DNA from: Blastobasis lacticolella
Lineage: Eukaryota > Arthropoda > Insecta > Lepidoptera > Blastobasidae
Reading direction: 5' to 3'
Length of the DNA: 64,000 nt
Assembly: GCA_905147135.1 (NCBI GenBank)
Contig: LR990068.1
Coordinates: forward strand, 3,988,001-4,052,000
Position numbers and translations under genes: made by a program
The notes under the pieces: generated by a model
What the model saw: only the letters and a program-made list of their open reading frames with translations
The model's database searches: none
What the model was told of the DNA's origin: nothing
Shown: in pieces, positions 5,616-31,480 of the stretch
How the letters are laid out: every line of letters begins with the position of its first letter
Position numbering within the stretch: position 1 is the stretch's first letter

Positions 5616-7039
5616 TTAATTTTCTTCCACCGTTATCAACGACATCGTAGCGTACGGGTTCATTGGAAGAAGATGCTGACCCATCGATACATCTTGCATG
5701 ACAGTGTTACTGCCTTCAGACCTGTCATTTTGATGAACACCTCTATTCTCTATTGAGTACGCATGCACTGCATTCTCAAAATTATCACCTTCAATCTCGA
5801 CCTTCAGATACTTACCGCTGTGCTGTTTCAGCTTATGTCGCTTGACACTCTCGATTTTCTGATACTTCTTGTCACAGAGATCGCACTGAAACTTCTTCAG
5901 GTTCAAATGAACGAACTTCACGTGACGGTTCAGAGCGTTCTTCTCTGGATACCTCTTCTCGCATAAGTGGCACTGATGCGGCCTGTTCTCGTGGTTCGCC
6001 ATATGTTTCTCCATGTCGTAGACGTTCTGTTTACATAGATCGCATTTGACTTTCTTTGTGAATCTTGGCGGTATCGGGGCGCCGGTCGAATCGATGTTAT
6101 GCACGTTCCGTTTATGTCTGTACACTTGGGATTTCTGTTTATAAGCCACGCCACATATATCGCAAGCGAACGGCCTCTCGTCGCTGTGCTCCAATATGTG
6201 TCTCCTGAGCGAATATTTGCACGAGAAATCCTTGTCGCACTTGTGGCATTTGTGGGGCAAACTCCCGGTGTGGGACCTCACGTGCTTCCGGAATGCACCC
6301 CTGCCTTCAAGCTTTTCCCCGCAAACTATACACTTGTACTTCCGAATTGGAATCGCGTTTTTCTCCCCGTGTACCATATTGCGATGTTTCTTTAACACAG
6401 AGATGCTGACGTAATTTTTATCGCATTCGACGCATCTGTACGCTCTGTCACCAGTGTGGCGCTTCGTGTGCTCCTTCAGTATCTTCTTCGTTGAGAAAGC
6501 TTTGCCGCAGACTGTACACGTGTAGGGTTTCAGTTTCTCGTGGACGGCTCTTAAATGGCTCAAGAAGTTTGATTTGTCGTTGAATTTTAGGCCGCATATG
6601 TGGCATACGACCTTCTTTATCGTGCCCTCGTGGTCCAACCCGAGATGCCTCCGCAGAGACTGCTTGTATTTGAACCGCCTCTGACACAAATCGCAGGTAT
6701 AAGGTTTTTCATTTATATGCAACAATTCGTGGTCCTTAAGAGAGTGTCTGCTGAAGAAGGTCTTCGGACAAAACGTGCATCTGTATTTCTCCCTGCCGTG
6801 GACCTGTGAATGTTCCACATACGCGTTCTTATTGGTGAATATCTCCCTGCAGATAGAGCATACGTACTCTCGTTCAGCGTAATGCGTATCCCTGTTGTGT
6901 CGATTCAACTCCTTCACACCGTCAAAGGATTTGTGGCAATTTCGACATTTGATCGGCAAATTCTGCTCTGCACTCTGTTCAGATTTTACGGCAGGGCTTT
7001 CGTCGATGTCATCTTTTATGTGCTCGGGTTTTGTCACGA
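5616..7039 (-). CDS. C2H2 zinc-finger terminal exon (13 fingers) of the minus-strand ZAD gene
   Basis: A minus-strand acceptor (AG at 7041-7040, after ...TTTTCAATTTAC) opens 474 codons to TAA at 5618-5616. Upstream in-frame codons are intronic in character. After an acidic linker come 13 C2H2 fingers, beginning with IKCRNCHKSF, most joined by short TGEKP-like or degenerate linkers. Finger 11 (CDLCKQNVYDMEKHMANH) has only nine residues between the second Cys and first His instead of twelve. Such arrays bind DNA in the nucleus; target unknown. The exon starts with two bases of a codon (phase 1), matching the donor of the linker exon at 7446-7571. The 3' UTR starts inside a MITE. Confidence 0.88.
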
Positions 7040-7445: not shown

Positions 7446-7571
7446 CGATTGCAGACTTCCTTTTCCTTTTTCTGCCTAATTTATTAACAGGCGCATTGCC
7501 TTTTGTTCTCGCCAGTCCTTTTCGTTTTGTCTTTGGTAGTATTTGTGGCTTTTTCTCTTTTTTTACGCCAC
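7446..7571 (-). CDS. Basic linker exon upstream of the C2H2 array
   Basis: A minus-strand acceptor TTTTGTTTCAG (AG at 7573-7572) and donor GTAAGA (7445) bound 126 bases with phase 1 at both ends. The in-frame translation GVKKEKKPQILPKTKRKG... is rich in Lys and Arg and ends RKRKRKSAI, a plausible nuclear-localisation segment. The phases fit both the C2H2 exon at 7039 and the last ZAD-side exon at 14769, giving a ZAD-linker-C2H2 protein of about 670 residues. Reading in either other frame hits a stop. Confidence 0.7.
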
Positions 7572-8978: not shown

Positions 8979-9435
8979 CGTAAATATCATTATGCCCATG
9001 TGTGCGGTTTGTGTACTCTTACGGGCTGTTGGTGTGATGATATATGGTAGGGTACCGAAGCTCCCAGAAAATAATAGGATGCATTGCATGGGATAGTTGA
9101 ATATTCACAGAGATCCAAAATGCACGCGGGGCACTGCTACTGATTATATACATAGTATACAACAAAGTCGCATCCCGCCATCTGTCCCTATGTATCTACG
9201 TACGCTTAGATATTTTAAACTACGCAACGGACTTTAATGCGGTTTTCAACAATACAGAGAGTGATTCAAGAGGAAGCTTTATAAGCAAGAAAGGTTATAA
9301 ATAAAAATACTAGCTAGTAGATAACAAATGTTCACAAGTATATTTAACAAACACAACGCTATAACATATTAAGTTACGGAACTAACAGAACGTAATAAGT
9401 TATTACTGCTACTTTATAAATAAATAATAAATATA

Positions 9436-9441
9436 TTTATT
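9436..9441 (-). terminator. Candidate poly(A) signal after the triple-domain exon
   Basis: AATAAA on the minus strand about 380 bases downstream of the stop at 9819. The 9050-9435 stretch beyond is AT-rich and unrecognised. Confidence 0.4.
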
Positions 9442-9818
9442 GATCAGATTATTACAGAATCCAAAAAAACATGTTAGTAACATAATATTATCTTACACCA
9501 CTATGTTAGTAATATAATCTTATAAAATTCTGGTAGTATAATTAGGTACTGCTTAAAACCCCCATCGTCAAACACCCCGCCCGACTGAGAGCAGAAAAGA
9601 ACGCACATTAATAAGTTGACATAGAGACTTTCAAAGCTAAAATAAAAAATCCTTGACGATAATCCGTGGGAGATCCTATTCTCTCTCGTTATATCAATTA
9701 TCTTATAACTAATGACTGTAAAATAGAATGTCTGATAAATAGGCAAGTGGATGTATACGTCTCTGTCAATCCTGTTTAGGAAAAGTACCGTGACGGTAAG
9801 TCATTATTCTCAAATCTC

Positions 9819-12664
9819 TTATATCTTCTTTTTTGAATGTTTACCACGCATATCGTCCAAATTGTCACATGCGTTCAACTTCGCAACTACAGTCCGAACT
9901 TGCCTTGAACTGATACCCAAAGTGTTTGTGAAAAACAACTTGCAAACTCTCACAGTTTCCCCATCCACATCGAAATGAAATGCACTGTTATACTTTCTAT
10001 TGCCGGATCTGTACTGATATTTTGGTATGACTTCAGTGATATGTTTGGCAATGTATTTCCTTTGCCCCAACAGAGAACCCATATTCCAGTAAAGTTCGAA
10101 AATCCTTTCTCGAGATTTCTGCGTAAACGTCTCCGAGCATTTCAGACGACAATTTTCGCAGGCGGCTAACATTTTTCTTTCAGGAATAACTTTCTTGGTA
10201 CGTGAGGAGACATAGCGCTGGCCAGAATTGCGGAGTTTCTTAGCCACATTTTGTTTTTGTGTGCTAATTCCAGAAGTATCTACGGAATTAGATTCTTCTG
10301 AGAGAACATGCTCATTTCCATCACTTTTTAAAACAATTTTCCCGTTAAACTCATTTAATACGTAAGTACCGTCAACCTCTTCATTACTTACGGTAATCTC
10401 GTCAATCTTAGTACAACCATAGCGTTTTGATTTAGTTTCTTTATCTAATGAAGGACTAACGACACCATTAGGTAGCAATGGTAAATCACCCACTCTTAAT
10501 CTGGATATTCCACTAGAATCTCTAGATTGTGTAATAGAATCTCTCGTTTTCATAACTGAACAAGGACTAATAACATTGTCTTGCAAAGAAGACACAAAAT
10601 TATTACAATGAGATAAATTTGAAGTATCATTTGTCACTATATATTTATCTGAGATCTTTGTTATTTTCTCTAAATCCCAATTATCTATGTTTAAATTATC
10701 ATCAAGATCGGATTCATTGTCATCGAAGTCATGTTGCGATGGTAAATCTGCTGCTCCTGCCTTACCAATAGAATCTCTCGATTCTGTTTTTGTTTCTTTG
10801 TCTGCAATCTCTATTTGTAACATGATATCATCTTTATATATTTTATTTTTCGTTTGTGTTCGGCATTCCCTCTCAAATATAATTTGTTTTTTATCTTTCT
10901 TTCTCTTAATACGTGGAAATTTCCCACGCAAATCATCTACATTGCCACATGAATTCAACTTCTGAACAACTGTACGAACTGTTCTCTCACTGATCCCTAA
11001 AGTGTTTATGAAGAACAACTTGCAAACTCTAACTGTGTGGCCATCTACATAGAAATAAAATGCGCTGTTATACTTTCTATCAGTATAGTTTCTCCTATAT
11101 TTGGGTACAACCAAAGACATATGTTTTACAATGTAGTTCCGTTGCCTCAACAGGGTACCCATATTCCAGTAGCTCTTGAAAATTTGCTCACGAGATGTCT
11201 CCGAAATCTTTTCCGCGCATTTCAGACGACAGTTTTCACATGGGGGTTGCAATTTTCTTGCAGGTATGAGCTTCTTTGATCGTGACGATACGTAGCACTG
11301 GCCAGAATCGCGGAGTCTTTTAGCTACAGTTTTTTTATTTCCCGAAGACCAGTCACGAAGACTTTGGCTATCTATAGCCACATCTATGTCATTTTCGGTG
11401 CTAATTCGAGAATCATCTATAGGCAGTGGATCAATATAATTCAAATTTAGAGAATCTTCCATTGAAAGATCTTGGTCATTGCTCTCAGTTTTAATAACAA
11501 AGTTCAATCCTAAACTATTTAACTCATCTAATACGCAAATACCCTCAACTTCTTTTGACTTTGAATATCTATGCCGTATTGATTCAACACCATCACATAG
11601 AGACGGTCAATCATCAGTTCTAGAGCTAGATATACCATACGAATCACTCGAGACTGCAACAGTTTCATTTTCTGTAAAATCTTTTTCTAACTTGTCATTC
11701 ACACACAAAGTCTTTTTCTTCTTATCTCTGTTTTTCTTTGAATGTTTACCACGCAAATCATCTACATTACCACACGATTTCAACTTCTCAACAACGGTAC
11801 GAATTGTTCTATCAGTAATGCCTAAAGTGTTTACGAAAAACAACTTGCAAACTCTCACTGTTTCGCCATCTACATCAAAATGAAATATGTTGTTATACTT
11901 TCTATCGCTGTATCTTCTATACCGATGTTTCGGTAAGAACTCGGTCATATGTTTGGCAATGTATCTACGTTGATCCAACAGAGAACCCATATCCCAGTAG
12001 AGTTTGAAAAGTTTCTCGCGAGACGCTTCCGTGATCTTTTCAGAACATTTCAAACGACAGTTTTCGCATGGGGGTAGCAATTTTCTTTCCGGCATAAGTC
12101 TCTTAGTTCGTGCGGATAAATAACACTGACCAGAATTGCGGAGTATTTTAGCTATAGAGGCAGCTCTTTTGTCAATTCTCACTTCGTTAGCTCGTCTTCT
12201 TTTTTTTATGTCTCTCGTATTGGAATTTTGGTTGTCATTTGATTTCGAGTCTGATTCATTTGTACAACTATCATTTTCGTTACACGAATCACTGTCATCG
12301 GTCGCATTCGAATTTTGGTTTTCATTTGATTTCGAATCTGATTCATTTGCAAAATAATTACTGTCATTATCGTTACCATAATCACTATCATCGGAGTTTA
12401 CACTGAACTCTCTTAGTGAGGATATATTGACGTTACATTCGTCGCTTTTTCGACGCGTTAAACGTTTGTCATAGTTTTGTTTTGTTGATGCTCCAGTAGA
12501 CAATGTTCTAGAGAGTGTAGCTGCCGCATTGTTCTTGCAAAATTCAGACTGATCTCCCGGGTGGCTGGTTTCCTTGCGAACGCTGTTTTCGGCAATATGA
12601 TCCGTCCCACGATCTTCGTCTGAAGGAGAAAAATCTTTGTCAAATCGTTCACCACCATGATTAG
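9819..12664 (-). CDS. Terminal exon with three tandem copies of an unrecognised Cys-rich domain, interrupted by one TGA
   Basis: One minus-strand frame is open from a TGA near 12740 to TAA at 9821-9819 except for a single TGA at 11609-11607. No in-frame ATG precedes the first domain, and a pyrimidine-rich run lies just upstream, so this is probably a 3' exon. The acceptor ending at 12665 gives phase 1, fitting the ZAD exon at 14769. Domain copies lie at about 12159-11722, 11330-10889 and 10249-9819. Each has an N-terminal (K)LR(N/D)SGQ.Y.S.R.KK..P.RK, CENCRLKC, a YW.MGSLL.QR.YI.KH segment, then RKYN..F.F.VDG.TVRVCK and a helical NTLGI..R.VRTVV.KL end with D(D/M)RGK. Acidic Ser/Asn-rich linkers separate them. 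I have seen similar sequence in insect proteins but cannot name the family; function unknown. An independent gene or pseudogene is the alternative. Confidence 0.65.
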
Positions 12665-12902
12665 CTTCAGGGCTTGAAAATGCGTCGATGACATTAAGGA
12701 GTAAGAAAGTTAGATTTACAGTAAAGGTAGATAGATATCAACGGTAATGTATTGAAACAAGTGGAGACATGGCCCGCACTGTCCACCATGACCATATCCA
12801 TACGTGGCTCACTTCAAGCCACGTAAGTCTATCTAAGTATTCACAATAAGTCAAAATACATAATAAGCTCTAAAAAACATTTTAAAATTTATCATTACTA
12901 CC

Positions 12903-13110
12903 TATAACAGTCCACCGCAGGACTTAGGACCTCTAACAGAGGACGTTATTGCCATAATGTCAACGCTTGGAAGGCAGGTTGGAGATCGCAGTGTTATAAA
13001 TATAAAAATGGAAAATGCTACTGCCCATTTCCAGCATACGGAGACTCCAGAGCTTTTGCACGACACCCACGAGTGTAACGGGTTCTACTCTGCCGCACAC
13101 AGCACGGCCA
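12903..13110 (-). mobile_element. SINE-like family B, copy 2
   Basis: Reverse-oriented copy (CAGTCCACCGCAGGACTTAG ... CACGGCCA) with internal deletions. Confidence 0.7.
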
Positions 13111-13446
13111 ATTTAAATTTATATTAAAGTTACTGAAAGGCAAATCTTGGGGTGTTTACACTATATACTTAAGTACATTTGCGATCGATTACGGCAGCTT
13201 CCTGTACGGTAGCAGAACTAAATATCATCTAATGGTATATTTCATACAAAATAGATATTTATTTGGAGGCCGTTCACTTGCTTTACACTGACACACGAAA
13301 CTGGAACGCGTTGCTCATAGAATAAGGGTCATTATTGTATCACGCATTTTTGAATGCGGAACGGAGCATACGTACGAAAAAGGGTTAGCCCATCAGATCG
13401 ATTTTCGCTTCTTATTGAAAACTAGCCACTAAATAAAATATCTGGC

Positions 13447-13510
13447 CTGCCACGCCAATCTAGACGTTTAAAAATCATTCGTTTCGATGGAATTGACGCC
13501 TTACGAGTAT
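13447..13510 (+). repeat. Dispersed repeat, 'empty' copy of the M13 target
   Basis: GGCCTGCCACGCCAATCT runs directly into AGACGTTTAAAAATCATTCG. The second copy at 53955-54250 has a 216-bp MITE inserted at this junction. The flanking 13110-13446 stretch is otherwise unrecognised. Confidence 0.65.
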
Positions 13511-13529
13511 GTTGATGTTTTATACGGAG

Positions 13530-13740
13530 TACTAATGCGCTGATTATTGAAGCAAAAAGCGTGAGAGCAAATCAATGTGGAATGTATTGCTCATTGAATA
13601 AGGTCCATTTTTGTCACGTGTCGCTCCGCTTTTCAAAAGCCGTGATACAAAAATGGACCTTATTCAATGAGCAATACATTCCACTTTGATTTGCTCTCAC
13701 TCTATTTGTTTCTGAATTTAGTCAAATGTAATCAGCGCAT
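13530..13740. mobile_element. Near-perfect hairpin (foldback element M6)
   Basis: Arms 13561-13618 and 13641-13700 pair over about 58 bp with one mismatch and a 2-base indel; the shared core is GGAATGTATTGCTCATTGAA. Weaker pairing (TGCGCTGATTA / TAATCAGCGCA) continues outside, and the loop contains GCTTTTCAAAAGC. A related half-copy is at 13312-13375. Confidence 0.8.
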
Positions 13741-14245
13741 AAGACGACAGCGATAAAGAGCGAGCTTTCCCTCCCTTCGCTACTGGGCTGCCCGTATAGG
13801 TGTGGTGTAAGATCGATATTCGATAATGCTATATGCAAATGATAAATGAAATGTGTAAAATTATTTGTCGAAGGTTCACATTTCCTAGGAACTGTATGTA
13901 CATCCTAGGCATTGTACACAATCTCTAAATATGTGTCTCTTATGTTGTTGACAATAAAACGGGAAAATTCCACTGTTTCGGCGCTCAAAAAACACTCGGA
14001 TTGTAGCCGCAAGTTATTACACAACAGCACCCTAAATTTTAAAATGCGACTCCTGAACATTGTAGATTTCGTTCTGGTACTCGGTGGACCCTGCTGCGGC
14101 ACACTCGCTTCACTCATCGCAACCTAACCCTCTGTGACTGAACAAAGTTTTCGATACATTCGGTTTTTTGATGTTACACAGCCACAGCTTTCCATCAGCT
14201 GGGCTGTCTGCTCGTCTATCATTGGGTAGCAGAAAATAACTTAAG

Positions 14246-14460
14246 CTGGGGGTATAAAAAGGGCCACATTAACGTTCCATAATATGATTCATATTAATTT
14301 GTCACAAACATATCTGCAGCGTCGCTGTTGTTGACATTGACATGACAATTCAAAATGGCGTCACTCAGTTCCAGTATTGGCCACCGGATCACATAAGTTT
14401 GTGGCACTCTAATATTAATCATAATATGACACGCTAATGTGGCCTTTTAGCCCCCCTGGT
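14246..14460. mobile_element. MITE family M4, copy 1
   Basis: Terminal inverted repeats include AAAAGGCCACATTAGCGT-like sequence extended by a C/G-run. The internal segment (CGTCGCTGTTGTTGACATTG) is nearly identical to the copy at 53428-53641. Confidence 0.85.
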
Positions 14461-14485
14461 CTCTTGCATGTCTCGAAGATTGTAG

Positions 14486-14752
14486 GTAGAGCTCGTCTTC
14501 TAAAATGACGCGCCCCACTATCGCATTAACGCACACAAGCAAGTTTAAAATATGGACGCAATACATATACAAATGCCGTTGTAATTGGTCATTCAGTTGC
14601 CGGTGAGACACCAACGTAGGAGCTCGCGTCGTTCGATTGGAGCAGTCGACGCTCCCACACAGATAAAGTGTCGTTATTAATATTTGCACTCACACATCGA
14701 AATCAACTAACTAAGTAGTGGGGCGCGTCATTTTAGACTAGACGAGCTCTAC
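14486..14752. mobile_element. MITE family M5, copy 1
   Basis: Terminal repeats of about 36 bp (GTAGAGCTCGTCT...AAAATGACGCGCCCCACTA). Copy 2, in opposite orientation, is at 63187-63437. This copy begins only 16 bases inside the intron from the donor of the ZAD-gene exon at 14769. Confidence 0.85.
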
Positions 14753-14768
14753 AAGAAATTCAACTTAC

Positions 14769-14918
14769 CTTCTTGTTTGATCACTAGATTTATCTTGACA
14801 ATGTCCGTAGGTTCTTTCCCATTCTCGACTTCTACATCTGGGTTGTCAGACAGCGCACCGTCATAATCATGTGTGTCATCGAATTTCAGTTCTGTCTGGC
14901 AATGCTCTTCTATATTAC
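14769..14918 (-). CDS. ZAD gene (minus), exon 4: acidic linker
   Basis: Acceptor CTTTCAG (14921-14919) and donor GTAAGT (14768) bound 150 bases, phase 1 at both ends. It encodes NIEEHCQTELKFDDTHDYDG... ending DIVKINLVIKQE, an acidic linker of the type between ZAD and zinc fingers. VIKQE fits a SUMO-attachment-like pattern (hydrophobic-K-x-E). Its phase-1 donor can join 12664 (triple-domain exon) or 7571 (linker to C2H2 array), so this exon is the branch point between two possible proteins. Confidence 0.75.
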
Positions 14919-14950
14919 CTGAAAGTATGAGGTGATGACAATTAAATAAT

Positions 14951-15288
14951 CATCTGGTAGTTAATGTCCCGGTTGTGCTCTCGAGCATGAGAGCCCGGGG
15001 TCCGCCTTGACCATGATCCAGGATTTGGCGTTCAGGTAACTACAGTAGGGCGACTACCATCTGATCTCCGTGACCCTGCTACCAGGGGAACCTGATCAGA
15101 TTGGATCATAGTTGCAAATTCAGTCGCCTGAATGAGCAGGTTTCATCTCGATATTTTCGCCTAACTGTAAGAGCATAGGTTAGAATTCAACTAATGGACA
15201 TTACTCAGAAACGAGTCATTGTTACATGCCCGCAGCGGGATTCGAACCCAATACCTCTCGCTTACGAGTCGGATACTAAACCGATCCC
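14951..15288 (-). mobile_element. SINE family A, copy 3 (near full length)
   Basis: Complete head-to-tail copy on the minus strand with box B GGTTCGAATCC-like (GGGTTCGAATCCCGCTGCGG region) and the AATGTCCCGGTTGTGCTCTC tail complement. Confidence 0.85.
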
Positions 15289-15380
15289 TCCTCCTCCGTG
15301 CGAGGTGATAACAATTAATATGATTAATATCCTCATCTTTCAATGTTTTCCAACTGATCACATCAATCACAGAATAACAG

Positions 15381-15530
15381 TGATCTTGGCGTCAATATCG
15401 CGGTTGTGCTCTCGCACGCAAGAGGCCGGGGTCCAGAAATTGGCAGAACAGGTAATTTACAGTAGAGGGACTGCCATCTGATCTCCGTGACCCTCTGACT
15501 GGGAATCTGACCAAATTGGATCATGGCTAC
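15381..15530 (-). mobile_element. SINE family A, copy 4 (3' half)
   Basis: Tail-half fragment beginning at TGATCTTGGCGTCAATAT. It lies 90 bases from copy 3 in the same orientation; the 5' half is missing. Confidence 0.75.
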
Positions 15531-15684
15531 GGTCCACAGCCACCGCTCAGGAATGGCCATAACTGTGGCTTTAAATATTAGTTGCACAATTTAGGATGGG
15601 GGATGAGGTGGCCAACCTCATCTGCACCTGGTCGACTGTTGACAGATGTAGGAGTCTCAGACGAATGAGCTTCTCCATAACTGG

Positions 15685-15925
15685 TTGTGCGGGTGTAGCG
15701 ACATCTGTCGCTCCATTAGGGAAGCTAAACAATACTCGCATTACGAGTACCTACACGAACACAAGGTTGGCAAGCATTCGCCGCACATAGATGGCGCTGA
15801 TCGTTCGTACATCGCGTTAGAGAAGTGTGCCAACTTCGGCGCCATAAGTACTACTTTTGTATTTGTGTTTGTGTACTCATAATATGAGATGATGAGATTG
15901 ATCCATGTCGCTACACGGCCAGGTG
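15685..15925 (-). repeat. Dispersed repeat shared with 5100-5290
   Basis: Inverted copy of the 5100-5290 element (see that entry). Between copies, GTAGCGACATCTGTCGCTCC and AGCGCCATCTATGTGCGG are conserved. Confidence 0.6.
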
Positions 15926-15958
15926 GCAGTCGCTGCACGTAAAAAGCCAAAACAACAA

Positions 15959-16019
15959 TTTTTTATGGATCCTGGAGAAAACCACGTCGTTTTTTATGGA
16001 TCCTGGAGAAAACCAAGTT
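15959..16019 (+). repeat. 31-bp tandem duplication
   Basis: TTTTATGGATCCTGGAGAAA occurs twice, 31 bases apart (ATGGATCC at 15965 and 15996), with near-identical units. Confidence 0.8.
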
Positions 16020-16134
16020 TCAGTCGGTATATCTGGACCCAGGCTGGCAGATTTACCTCCTGTTGCTGAGCCAGGATTTGGCTTTGGCAATAAAAATAAA
16101 TTTCAATTGTATAAATTATGAGAAGATAACTTAC

Positions 16135-16191
16135 CTTGTTCATCTACATTGACTTCTATTTTAACATTTTCCAGGTTGTAAGACAATTCAT
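16135..16191 (-). CDS. ZAD gene (minus), exon 3
   Basis: A short 57-base exon between TATTACAG (16193-16192) and GTAAGT (16134), phase 1 at both ends. It encodes ELSYNLENVKIEVNVDEQ. VKIEV matches the SUMO consensus pattern seen in many insect zinc-finger linkers. The call rests on two good splice sites and matching phases. Confidence 0.7.
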
Positions 16192-16267
16192 CTGTAATAG
16201 ATAAGTGCCATAAATTACTGTATGATTCTAGAGGAGGAGGCTAGCTGCGGAGGTTAGCTGTAGAACT

Positions 16268-16480
16268 CTAGGTTAGTTACATAACGCTGTTGTTAACAAT
16301 TATCCGATTTCAATGATTGAAATTGTTACTTTCGCGATTACGTATGATTGAATTCATAGTTTCTGTTTATTGCACAATGGAACTTTGTTAGCAGCTATAC
16401 CCATGAAATTGTAACATTGATTAATTACAAAAGTAACAATTTCAATAACTGAAATCCGAGTTACGTAATTAGCCTACTAG
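16268..16480. mobile_element. Foldback MITE, family M1, copy 2
   Basis: Matches 320-545 along its length, with the same GTTACTTTCGCGATTACGTA and ACGTAATTAGCCTACT ends. Confidence 0.75.
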
Positions 16481-16504
16481 TCTTCTTTAAGACCACTAAT
16501 CTAC

Positions 16505-16965
16505 TAGTTTTTATGCAACACAGTAGCAAAGGAGCATACAGCCTATACTGCTGTTGTTGTCCATTCCCATAATACAAAATACAAACTATACCATAAGATT
16601 CATACATCAACATATCAGCCAAGACACAGACTGCTGGACATATGCCTCCACCAGAGATCTCCCCAAATCCCAGTCCTGTGCCTTCCGCATCCAGCTGGTA
16701 CCTGAGATCTTTACCAGATTGTCGGTCCACCTTGTGAGAGGCATACCTATGCTGTATCTTCCGGTATGATGTCACCACTCGAGAACATTACTGGCGCATC
16801 GGGCATCTGTTATTCGAGCCTGGACACTGTCGTTGACTTTGGTTCACTTGCGGATGTTATTTCTGATTCAATTGTGCAACAAGACTCCGAGCATAGCCCT
16901 ATCCATTGCCCTTTGGGTGACAGTGATCTTTCTTAAGGCCCATAGTGAGCGGACCATAGTATGAA
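16505..16965 (-). mobile_element. LINE 3' coding fragment, degraded
   Basis: Minus-strand translation, over several frames, gives TRWTDNLVKISGTSWMRKAQ and flanking residues typical of the C-terminus of insect LINE polyproteins (RWTDDL.K.AG..W...AQ). Frameshifts and stops are present. A shorter relative is at 28690-28805. Confidence 0.65.
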
Positions 16966-16994
16966 CAGCTAAAAGTAGATAAAAAGAAACTTAC

Positions 16995-17121
16995 TTCTGC
17001 AATATTCATCAAACTTCACTTCGCAAGTGAGCACTTGGTTTTTAAATCGGTGTGCATCTTTCAATTGTTTAATGCAGGTATCACAAATGGAGTGGCTCAC
17101 TTCTATTGGAGGCTGGTTCAT
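16995..17121 (-). CDS. ZAD gene (minus), exon 2: second half of ZAD
   Basis: Acceptor TGCTTGCAG and donor GTAAGT; starts in phase 0 and ends one base into a codon. It encodes MNQPPIEVSHSICDTCIKQL followed by a long helix and ...CEVKFDEYCR. ICDTC supplies the second CxxC pair (residues 60 and 63) of the zinc-associated domain, which typically mediates dimerisation of insect C2H2 factors. Confidence 0.85.
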
Positions 17122-17242
17122 CTGCAAGCAGGGAGATGTATTATAATGTTAAGATCAAAGCATAACATACCACCAATCGGGTATCAAGACTGTTCAATTC
17201 AACCTGGAGAGTTTTGGACAGGAACTTGCACCTTTTTTACAT

Positions 17243-17400
17243 TTAACGGCTGACAAACAGGCAAGCGGGACACCTGATGGAAAGTGGTCATCGCCGCCTA
17301 TGGCGCAGCAACAACACCAGGGGAATTACCAATGCGCTGCCGGCCTCTGAACACACCTCCAAAGTCTCCAAGTCCAAAGGAAACAGATCTATTTCATATA
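17243..17400 (-). mobile_element. LINE 3' tail, family L-B
   Basis: Minus-strand match to 32165-32398: CCTTTGGACT, GGCCGGCAGCGCATTGGTAA-like and CACCTGATGGAAAGTGGTCA on plus. Non-coding remnant in ZAD intron 1. Confidence 0.65.
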
Positions 17401-17519
17401 AGTCTTTAGTGCGATCTCTTGATGATACAATGAGTGAGTAATAAACCTAAAACGTGTCATGTAAATACAACTTGACTGCGCCTTGCACCTAAGTAAACAG
17501 AAAAACCAAAGGTACTCAC

Positions 17520-17660
17520 AATAATGCCAAAAGTATCCCTCAAAATCTCGGAATATATCTCGCACACGTCTTTGACACAGTACTGCTCTTGCAGGCTTTT
17601 GAAATTGCCATCGCTGTGGCAGCATCGACACAAGGACGTTAGATTCCAAATCTCAGCCAT
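17520..17660 (-). CDS. ZAD gene (minus), exon 1: start and first half of ZAD
   Basis: ATG at 17660-17658 opens 47 codons to a GTGAGT donor in phase 0. The N-terminus has LCRCCHSDGNFKSL, the CxxC (C11, C14) that begins a ZAD, followed by the I.S.ILRDTFGI helix. Exon length (141 nt) and phase are the same as in the plus-strand paralogue at 22287. ZAD proteins are nuclear transcription regulators expanded in insects. The gene is divergent from the C2H2 gene at 18121. Confidence 0.88.
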
Positions 17661-18120: not shown

Positions 18121-18424
18121 ATGAACGAAGACCTAGAAGTGACAATAAAGGTGGAACCTTTGATGGAGAATACGGAGGAAGTTAATTCTTGCGTCAATTT
18201 ACGAAATTGTGATCTAGTTATAGAAGTGAAAATTGAACCTTGCCTAGAAGCAGTCCTAACAACAGCCTTTAACAACAACGTAGGCAAGAATAAAGAGAAA
18301 TCAGGCCAATGCATTAATAAACGAGCACACAATGTATTAGAAGAACTGTATGAAAACCATGAATACAAGGAAGAAATGGTTTTAGGGCCTGAACTTGTGC
18401 AAGAATGTAACCTAAAAAGTAATG
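18121..18424 (+). CDS. C2H2 gene (plus), exon 1: acidic N-terminus with SUMO-like motifs
   Basis: ATG at 18121 with an in-frame TAA 24 bases upstream; the exon ends at a GTGAGT donor one base into a codon. It encodes about 101 residues with VTIKVEPLME and VIEVKIEPCLE, two hydrophobic-K-x-E motifs common in insect transcription factors as SUMO sites. There is no ZAD. Reading through the donor continues open to 18537, so a retained-intron short form is possible. It joins the exon at 18844 in phase. Confidence 0.75.
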
Positions 18425-18475
18425 GTGAGTCAAATGTTCAACCCAAGATACTTAAAATACCTAATACTACTACTA

Positions 18476-18786
18476 GCAGTTCGGGTGGTGTCTTACCCGA
18501 ATTTAATACTTTGCCTCAAATGACGTTACCTCGATGATTATTGACTAATAAAATTTATATAACACACAGGATACAGGCTAATCAGTTGGTAAACTGCCTG
18601 CCTGATTAAAGATAATAATAATAATATTTATTAGCTTTATTTTTTAAGGTAACGACTAATCAGTGAAATGAACCCTCAATGGTTCTGACCTTTCGAGGTA
18701 ATGAATATATCATCAAGGTAGACTCATTGAGGTAACATTATTCGAGGTAAAGTATTTAACTCGTCTTACCTCTAGCACTTCCCTAT
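18476..18786. mobile_element. Foldback MITE M7 in the intron
   Basis: Left arm 18476-18538 and right arm 18722-18786 are imperfect inverted repeats sharing TTTAATACTTT(G/A)CCTC and GTTACCTC(G/A)ATGA. The intron of the plus C2H2 gene is mostly this element. Confidence 0.6.
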
Positions 18787-18843
18787 ACATATCAATATTC
18801 AATGGTGTTTTTAAACTAAGTATGTCATTGTTTCTATTTACAG

Positions 18844-19511
18844 ATGACACGGAAAACATACAAAATAAATTGGCAGACTCCAATAAAACATTACAGACAT
18901 TATTGGAGGAGAATAATCACGTTGAAAATAAACTGTGTCATCTATGCAACAAAAATTTCAATGACACTAGGGACTTCGAAAAACATATGATCAAACACAG
19001 TTATCAGAAAAAACTTACCTGCTGCCAGTGCAAGAAGAAATATTTATATGAAAAGAATTTGCTCTGGCATCTAATGAACAGACATACAGATCAGAACAAA
19101 TTATGCTGCCATCTCTGTAAGAAAATGTTGAAATCAATATCTTTACTGGAAAAACACATTCTAACACATTCAACGGAAATCTATTCTTGTGATCTATGCA
19201 ACAAAGAATTTGTTTACAAAACCAAGTTAGTCATGCACATGAGGCATCATGTCGGGGGCAGTGTGTATGTGTGCAAGTACTGTCAGAAAGAGTTTGAAGC
19301 TCCCAGCGGTCTTTTGTGTCATGAACGGACACATACAGGGCACAAACCGTTCTGTTGCGAATTTTGTGGTGCCTCGTTCAATAGAAGTTCTATATTACAC
19401 AGGCACATTAGACAACACACTGGTGAAAAACACAAGAAATGTAGACACTGTGAAAGAATGTTTATAAGGCAAACTGATTTGGATAGACATGAAAAGACAC
19501 ATAATAGTTAG
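18844..19511 (+). CDS. C2H2 gene (plus), exon 2: seven zinc fingers
   Basis: The acceptor TTTCTATTTACAG gives a two-base phase matching exon 1; the reading frame runs to TAG at 19509-19511. After a short acidic linker come seven C2H2 fingers, from LCHLCNKNFN to KKCRHCERMF, with a classic HTGHKP / HTGEKH linker near the end and a short tail. Exons 1 and 2 give a protein of about 320 residues, presumably a nuclear DNA-binding regulator. Fingers 1-3 have CC-rich, atypical starts. No finger is shortened, unlike in the neighbouring ZAD genes. Confidence 0.88.
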
Positions 19512-22286: not shown

Positions 22287-22427
22287 ATGAGTGATACGTG
22301 GGTCGACAACGGCTTCTGTCGTTGCTGCCATTCCGAGGGACAATTCAGAAGTCTCGGAGTTGCCTTTTCCTTTGAAGGGAACCGTGAAATCTACTCTGTA
22401 CTTTTACGCGAAACTTTCGACATCGTT
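22287..22427 (+). CDS. ZAD-C2H2 gene (plus), exon 1: start and first half of ZAD
   Basis: ATG at 22287 is preceded two codons earlier by an in-frame TGA, so the start is well fixed. The 47 codons end in phase 0 at GTAAGT. FCRCCHSEGQFRSL gives the first CxxC (C11, C14) and REIYSVLLRETFDIV the helix after it, closely parallel to the minus-strand ZAD gene. The locus runs over five exons to 31480 and encodes about 574 residues. Confidence 0.88.
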
Positions 22428-23206: not shown

Positions 23207-23357
23207 ATAACTCCAATGGCAGACAATAGTAGCGAAACATACACCATATGCGAAGTGTGTGTGCCACGCCTGCGAGACGCAGCACGGTTCAGACAACAGG
23301 TTCAGCAGTGCGAAGCCACTTTAGGAGAGTACTATGCCCGATATTTGGCTAGAAAAG
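23207..23357 (+). CDS. ZAD-C2H2 gene (plus), exon 2: second half of ZAD
   Basis: Acceptor TTTTTAACAG, donor GTGAGG. It encodes ITPMADNSSETYTICEVCVP and a following helix. ICEVC provides the second CxxC (C62, C65). It starts in phase 0 and ends in phase 1, as in the minus paralogue, with a slightly longer exon (151 vs 127 nt). Confidence 0.86.
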
Positions 23358-30111: not shown

Positions 30112-30272
30112 TTTTTTTTACCAAATATGCGTAAAACTGCCATGGATCTGCGATTGTGACCACTGTACATCAGGTGACAGGCTTGCCTTTTTGTCTACCG
30201 TATAACATAAAAAAAAACAGTTTCCACGCGAAGAAAAGCTAGTATCTTCACCATTATTTCCTATGCTTTCAG

Positions 30273-31480
30273 ACGAGCCTGAACGCAAGCCTCGAACCAA
30301 GAAGTTCTCCTGCGAGATCTGTTCAAAGAAATTCTCTTACAACGGCTCCCTGGAAGTCCACATGAAGGTACATACTGGTGAGAAAACCTACCCATGTCTC
30401 CTTTGCAACATAAAGTACGCCAGGAACAAGGATTTGACGAAACACATAGCGGATAACCATTCTGACGGCGACAAGTATCCTTGCAAAATCTGCAACAACT
30501 CCTTCGAAAAACCCAGGCAGTTGAAGACGCATCTTGTGACCCATTTCGTCGAATTCAAATGCAGCCACTGCGACAAACTCTTCCAGAGAAAGAAGGGCTT
30601 GAAAGAACATATGAAAACTCATACAGGGGAGAGGAAATATACTTGTGATATATGTCAGAAGTCCTTCGGCCACAACCAGACGTTGAAGAGTCATATATTG
30701 ACGCATACAGGAGAACGTCCCTACGTGTGCGATGTGTGTGGTCGCAGATTCCCGCAACGAACCCATTTGAAGCGCCACATATTCATTATCCATACAGGTG
30801 TCAAGCCGTACTCTTGTAATATATGTCAGAAACACTTCTCCAGTAAAAGTTACCTGGCAATACATGAGAGACAGCATACGGGCGAGAAACCTTTCTCTTG
30901 CGAGGTTTGCAAGAAGAATTTCACAGCGTATACTACTTTGAAAGTCCATATGCGGGTGCATACTGGTTTCAAGCCGTACTCGTGCAGTTTTTGTGACAGG
31001 CAATTCGCTCAAATGGCCAGCTTTAAGCTCCATGAGCGTACTCATACCGGGGAACGTCCGTTTTCGTGTACAGTGTGCAAGAAACCGTTCTCGGATAATG
31101 GTTACTTGAAGATTCATATGCGGGTCCATTCCGGGGAAAAGCCCTATGAGTGTGAGACCTGCAAACGTAGTTTCAGGGAAAGTGGACAACTCAAACGTCA
31201 TATGAGAGTCCATACGGGCATCAAACCGTATTCCTGCAAGATTTGTAATAAGCAAATCGGGAATCTGTCAAAACATATGAGGGTACATTCCGAAGAGAAA
31301 TATCATTGTAGCGTCTGTAATAAACAGTTTTCTGTCAATGGGAACCTGAAATTGCATATGAGAATCCATTCCAGTGATAAAGCCCTGACTTGTGATCAAT
31401 GTAATGCAAATTTCTCTCAGAGCAGTGGTCTAAAGAAGCATAGGTGTAATATTGGCGGTAAAAATGCAAATCCGTTATGA
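30273..31480 (+). CDS. ZAD-C2H2 gene (plus), exon 5: 13-14 zinc fingers
   Basis: The acceptor CTATGCTTTCAG starts a 402-codon frame to TGA at 31478-31480. Thirteen clear C2H2 fingers run from [10 protein letters not shown] onward, mostly with H(T/S)GE(K/R)P linkers. A last one ([10 protein letters not shown]) ends KKHRC, so its second His is replaced. Finger 12 ([18 protein letters not shown]) has only nine residues between Cys and His. It is third from the end, like the short finger in the minus-strand paralogue. The protein is a presumed sequence-specific DNA-binding regulator dimerising through ZAD. The antisense 310-codon frame here is a codon-usage shadow. Confidence 0.92.

Follow-up and report, generated by a model that had tools for sequence, protein, structure and literature searches.

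The window analysed here is a 64,000-nucleotide stretch of the genome of the lepidopteran Blastobasis lacticolella (assembly GCA_905147135.1, contig LR990068.1, positions 3,988,001 to 4,052,000). Its minus strand carries a zinc-finger gene of the ZAD-C2H2 type, and in the fourth intron of that gene, on the same strand, lies a block of three tandem cysteine-rich modules in one reading frame, whose origin and relation to the host gene are the subject of this study. The ZAD is a dimerisation domain, and the role of ZAD-C2H2 genes in insects resembles that of the KRAB-C2H2 genes of mammals.

The host is an ordinary ZAD-C2H2 gene spanning 17660-5616, with four ZAD exons, a linker exon and a terminal C2H2 exon joined by predicted splicing. 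The exon borders have GT/AG ends and, in the rough scoring applied to all splice sites, the donor of exon 4 (14769) is joint top of the 826 GT sites of the locus. The predicted spliced product is 674 amino acids long, with the C2H2 array in frame with the ZAD. Its first 158 residues match positions 1-74/75 of Pfam zf-AD (E 2.9e-6) with 27.9 bits, which misses the curated Pfam cut-off (28 bits) by 0.1 bit, and the paired ZAD cysteines (CRCC, ICDTC) are found. Strict matching gives 12 C2H2 fingers, to which one shortened finger was added by eye, making 13 a fair count. These results bear out the preliminary description of the locus, which had placed ZAD exons with a phase-1 end at 17660-14769 and a linker exon leading to a 13-finger array at 7571-5616; the last three of the four ZAD exons end in phase 1, and the linker and terminal exons join in frame. 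Protein searches were made in length windows, two of them with a ceiling of about 8000 scored candidates, and the sole match to the product among the scored candidates was P0024, a ZAD-C2H2 protein of Euphydryas editha with 36% identity over residues 1-608. Right before the linker exon, a short ATG frame at 7681-7631 on the minus strand, MSENPHVIEFASPEEDE, was seen by eye to end at GTAAGT; it might be another first exon for the C2H2 part, with a phase mismatched to that of the linker exon.

Intron 4 (14768-7572) is 7.2 kb long, and the frame of the block within it ends at 9819. This frame contains one stop in 947 codons, compared with 26 to 116 in each of the remaining five, and 500 mononucleotide shuffles gave a mean of 71 stops and a minimum of 50; the block is therefore real coding sequence by origin. 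The triplicated module described previously was found again in one frame (Table 1), as was the absence of a start codon, the translation showing no ATG ahead of module 1 in its frame. The 2.8-kb frame formerly given as 12664-9819 has far fewer stops than chance but is not open, as an in-frame TGA at 11609-11607 splits the block into open reading frames of 12737-11607 and 11606-9819. A candidate poly(A) signal lies ~380 nucleotides past the block end, and hexamers of this type are common locally, with six AATAAA/ATTAAA in 9822-7600 and four within 11606-9822.

Table 1. Positions in the window of the exons of the ZAD-C2H2 gene and of the features of the intronic block
Feature	Position	Strand	Remarks
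ZAD gene exon 1 (ATG, ZAD first half)	17520..17660	-	ends phase 0
ZAD gene exon 2 (ZAD second half)	16995..17121	-	ends phase 1
ZAD gene exon 3	16135..16191	-	ends phase 1
ZAD gene exon 4	14769..14918	-	ends phase 1; donor AAG|GTAAGT
Candidate phase-1 acceptor (first exon base)	12619	-	best in open frame ahead of module 1
Module 1 (C-x2-C-x3-C ... C, helix-turn-helix-like end)	11745..12152	-	136 amino acids
In-frame TGA, next base C	11607..11609	-	linker between modules 1 and 2
Module 2	10920..11324	-	135 amino acids
Module 3 (used for structure model)	9840..10244	-	135 amino acids
AATAAA, candidate poly(A) signal	9436..9441	-	
Linker exon	7446..7571	-	phase 1 at both ends
Terminal exon with C2H2 array	5616..7039	-	12 strict fingers and one shortened (by eye)

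By sequence similarity, the module is the N-terminal domain of the DUF7869 (PF25273) transposase-like proteins of arthropods, a family that had gone unrecognised in the preliminary description, where it was taken for a non-zinc-finger cysteine-rich module. Relatives, lepidopteran proteins among them, are up to 55% identical to module 3, and each of the 23 examined carries one module. The module is probably zinc-binding and DNA-binding. For the DUF7869 part of one relative, P0001, and of its own relatives the predicted structure is RNase H-like, which suggests that this domain, whose Pfam name denotes function unknown, belongs to a DDE transposase or integrase, and the family may be expected to use DDE chemistry. 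The name DUF7869 was not met in the open-licence literature searched. The catalytic part appears to be missing from this locus, since the after-module parts of nine relatives gave no match in the window better than E 0.35. One DUF7869 protein, P0020 of Chilo suppressalis (1185 amino acids), has a first 400 residues that resemble by eye the remnant of a BED/hAT-type transposase, a junction that may be an annotation artefact.

The three modules are 69-72% identical in pairs, with synonymous divergence (dS) of 0.59-0.86 and ratios of nonsynonymous to synonymous divergence (dN/dS) of 0.269, 0.208 and 0.211. All four conserved cysteines are kept in each module, and at 33 of the 37 positions that are at least 80% conserved among the relatives all three modules carry the conserved residue, the exceptions being positions 10, 68, 120 and 140. 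The modules have thus been under selection in the past, although dN/dS values of 0.21-0.27 do not separate selection in the fused state from selection before fusion. A C-x2-C spacing at the first cysteine pair is common to all three modules and occurs in none of the 19 relatives whose motif could be read (the other four of the 23 had none), for which reason the modules probably derive from one captured copy. That three truncated transposons were instead inserted separately, side by side, is very improbable. The grouping of the modules into one clade is weak (support 79/14; 74% of 200 bootstrap trees), as separate insertions would allow, but these would have to account for the shared spacing, the frame kept across all three modules, the homology of the two linkers and the pairing of modules 1 and 2 at 96/81, and no inverted repeats were recognised as transposon ends around the modules. 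Of 22 inverted-repeat pairs in 9000-15000 none convincingly brackets the block, with the caveat that the ends of the DUF7869-type family are not known to us. Upstream of the block, intron 4 also contains a palindromic element with 66-nucleotide arms and a dispersed repeat (13549-13712 and 12888-13111), the latter with several further window copies among the matches listed.

The linker that contains the TGA shows homology to its sibling, which connects modules 2 and 3 (blastp E 4e-7); the similarity extends to either side of the stop, and a sense codon occupies the corresponding place in the sibling. The TGA thus probably arose late, within a linker that had been repeated, and is not the natural end of a one-module gene. 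Under neutrality, the 595 codons that follow would have a 50% chance of lacking a second stop at 0.007 substitutions per site, and a 5% chance at 0.031. From this long stop-free run it follows that the TGA, if neutral, would be young, and otherwise tolerated. Modules 2 and 3, past the TGA, retain coding constraint, in a comparison that does not fix the age of the stop. Among codons identical in two modules but different in the third, the ratio of silent to amino-acid-changing differences is 6:7 where module 1 is the odd one out, 6:8 for module 2 and 13:9 for module 3, with 36 further codons different in all three, and faster decay of the modules past the TGA was not seen in these counts. A UGA followed by C is a leaky stop context. 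RNA structure after the stop is little more stable than in shuffled sequence (z -1.17; 24 of 200 shuffles equally stable). Modules 2 and 3 would need readthrough or another allele, or else have recently been lost.

These results bear directly on the idea that the block is a dying remnant, the formerly functional end of a multi-module gene or fusion, spliced or not, that became a pseudogene starting with the TGA. A stop where the homologous sibling linker has a sense codon is what such a loss would leave, and a young loss fits the neutral estimate for the following codons. We nevertheless regard it as unlikely: 946 of the 947 codons are open, there is no frameshift, the conserved cysteines are intact in all three modules, and the TGA may be an assembly error or a polymorphic stop.

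The proposal that the block is a terminal exon of the ZAD gene, made in the preliminary description, holds as regards strand, the shared phase-1 donor and the missing start codon. The acceptor then suggested, at 12664, is weak, ranking only 386th of the 867 AG sites of the locus, and the frame it opens meets the TGA after module 1. A better candidate is the phase-1 acceptor at 12619, which ranks 29th of the 867 AG sites in 13.7 kb. As in the captured part of a host-transposase fusion, the block lies in a host intron, on the same strand and in compatible phase. The AATAAA past its end also counts in favour of a terminal exon. No 5' exon for it other than the ZAD exons was recognised in the translation, by comparison with the N-termini of relatives or in a scan of ATG starts across the window.

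A ZAD-plus-module arrangement also occurs in a database protein. P0017 (427 amino acids, source tag lgn) opens with a partial ZAD, the second half only, matching zf-AD positions 46-72 at E 8.5e-4 and 20 bits against the cut-off of 28, and continues in one frame through a module and more of a DUF7869-type protein. It looks like an independent ZAD-plus-module frame, although it is a single sequence with half a ZAD, and a contig artefact is possible. In our judgement an ICEQC-type ZAD sequence directly ahead of a module is hard to explain by chance.

Against use of the block as a ZAD terminal exon stand a number of observations. The splicing of block to ZAD is itself a prediction made from genomic DNA. 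AG sites as good as 12619 occur every ~470 bases, and it is outscored by one further up the intron, at 13539, and by several elsewhere in intron 4; agreement of phase between donor and acceptor is expected one time in three by chance. The pyrimidine tract of 12619 also encodes the motif DFSP.SD, carried by four of the 24 proteins retrieved, and so may be a relic of ancestral coding and not a tract that evolved for splicing. The TGA cuts the frame after module 1, separating modules 2 and 3, and the 23 module relatives are all single-module. P0024, the one database protein found to be related to the ZAD part, has no module; the ZAD half of P0017 matches the ZAD of the window only at E 0.15; and a ZAD-headed protein with several modules was not found in the length-windowed and partly capped searches, a result that is weak evidence.

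Some of the same sequence would suit a nested gene, in which a domesticated array of DUF7869-type modules, unconnected with the ZAD, is driven by a promoter of its own and begins with a small 5' exon in intron 4. The stretch ahead of module 1, which includes KDFSPSDED, is similar to what precedes the module in some relatives: in shuffle tests three of 14 gave p < 0.05 (P0014, 0.013; P0001, 0.023; P0004, 0.030), against a chance expectation of 0.7. Because of this resemblance the ancestral frame may have extended further upstream with its own start, which also counts against splicing to the ZAD. Translation from a minus-strand ATG at 14060 gives a peptide vaguely like the N-termini of relatives, but it ranks only 15th of the 1134 window ATG starts by the same score, as expected by chance; none of the GT sites in 14768-12700 exceeds a score of 3, against values of 3.2 to 9.2 for the five donors accepted; and the first 120 residues of 11 relatives gave no window match better than E 0.29. 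We therefore find a nested gene rather unlikely.

The reading that we tentatively favour is that the N-terminal module of a DUF7869-family, DDE-type transposase was captured in intron 4 and triplicated there, and that the block most likely is, or recently was, an alternative terminal exon. The module, without its catalytic domain, would have entered the intron of the ZAD-C2H2 gene and multiplied into three tandem copies. If the exon 4 donor (14769, phase 1) were spliced to an acceptor close to 12619, the product would be the ZAD head with module 1, ending at the TGA, and readthrough, or an allele without the TGA, would add modules 2 and 3; skipping of the block, from 14769 to 7571, would give the ordinary ZAD protein with 13 fingers. 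The two products would share the ZAD dimerisation head and, presumably, dimer partners. For the ZAD protein Cucoid, a homodimer has been predicted (figure legend in PMC9810180). It is possible, though we hold this doubtful, that a single ZAD head is shared by two DNA-binding proteins from this locus, a C2H2 protein and a host-transposase fusion with tandem modules, of which modules 2 and 3 are added only by UGA readthrough or in some alleles, and that ZADs have captured DUF7869-type modules more than once, as P0017 would indicate.

The closest parallel is KRABINER of bats, which joins ZNF112 to a mariner transposase and whose KRAB head comes from ZNF112 and is shared through alternative splicing. 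Like the locus described here, it combines part of a C2H2 gene with a transposase-derived DNA-binding part; here the head is a ZAD, the element is of the DUF7869 type and contributes only its N-terminal domain, in triplicate, and the fusion is predicted from genomic DNA. KRABINER is named as a host-transposase fusion (PMC10799480, PMC12062965), such genes are described as arising when an element inserts in an intron and splicing captures it (PMC8290160), and tetrapods are credited with 106 fusion genes from 106 events (PMC8290160, PMC10799480, PMC12062965). The block, if spliced, would add a variant to the known host-transposase fusions. DUF7869 proteins themselves share the same N-terminal module but have it singly (23 of 23), whereas the block has three in tandem and no catalytic part was found in the window.

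Within the ZAD family, PMC9810180 describes cucoid, a ZAD gene whose isoforms have alternative 3' ends, and CG6689, a THAP plus ZAD-ZNF protein, so that ZAD genes can have alternative 3' ends and can also acquire a relative of the DNA-binding domain of the P-element transposase. The short cucoid isoforms, as described there, lose some fingers and not all, unlike the alternative end proposed here, which would have no C2H2 finger. Mod(mdg4), with more than 30 isoforms that differ in their C-terminal domain according to PMC5666082, likewise combines one head with many ends, but has a BTB in place of a ZAD and many ends against two here. No report of a ZAD combined with DUF7869, or carrying any transposase-derived end besides THAP, was met in the portions accessible of the open-licence literature searched. 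If the fusion is real, the route to host-transposase fusion described for tetrapods is open to insects too, with the other great family of zinc-finger genes as host, and mixed dimers of the two products, which share one head, could join a C2H2 target site to transposon ends.

Other genes lie nearby. Head to head with the ZAD gene is a C2H2 gene at 18121-19511 on the plus strand, with an acidic, ZAD-linker-like sequence by eye; no ZAD was found near it. A second ZAD, in exon-like pieces at 22314-22427 and 23237-23332 on the plus strand, is 44-50% identical to the ZAD of the first gene, and a large C2H2 array downstream of it (30206-31480, plus strand) may belong with it. At 60985-59202 on the minus strand, long frames resemble by eye the reverse transcriptase of a non-LTR (non-long-terminal-repeat) retrotransposon.
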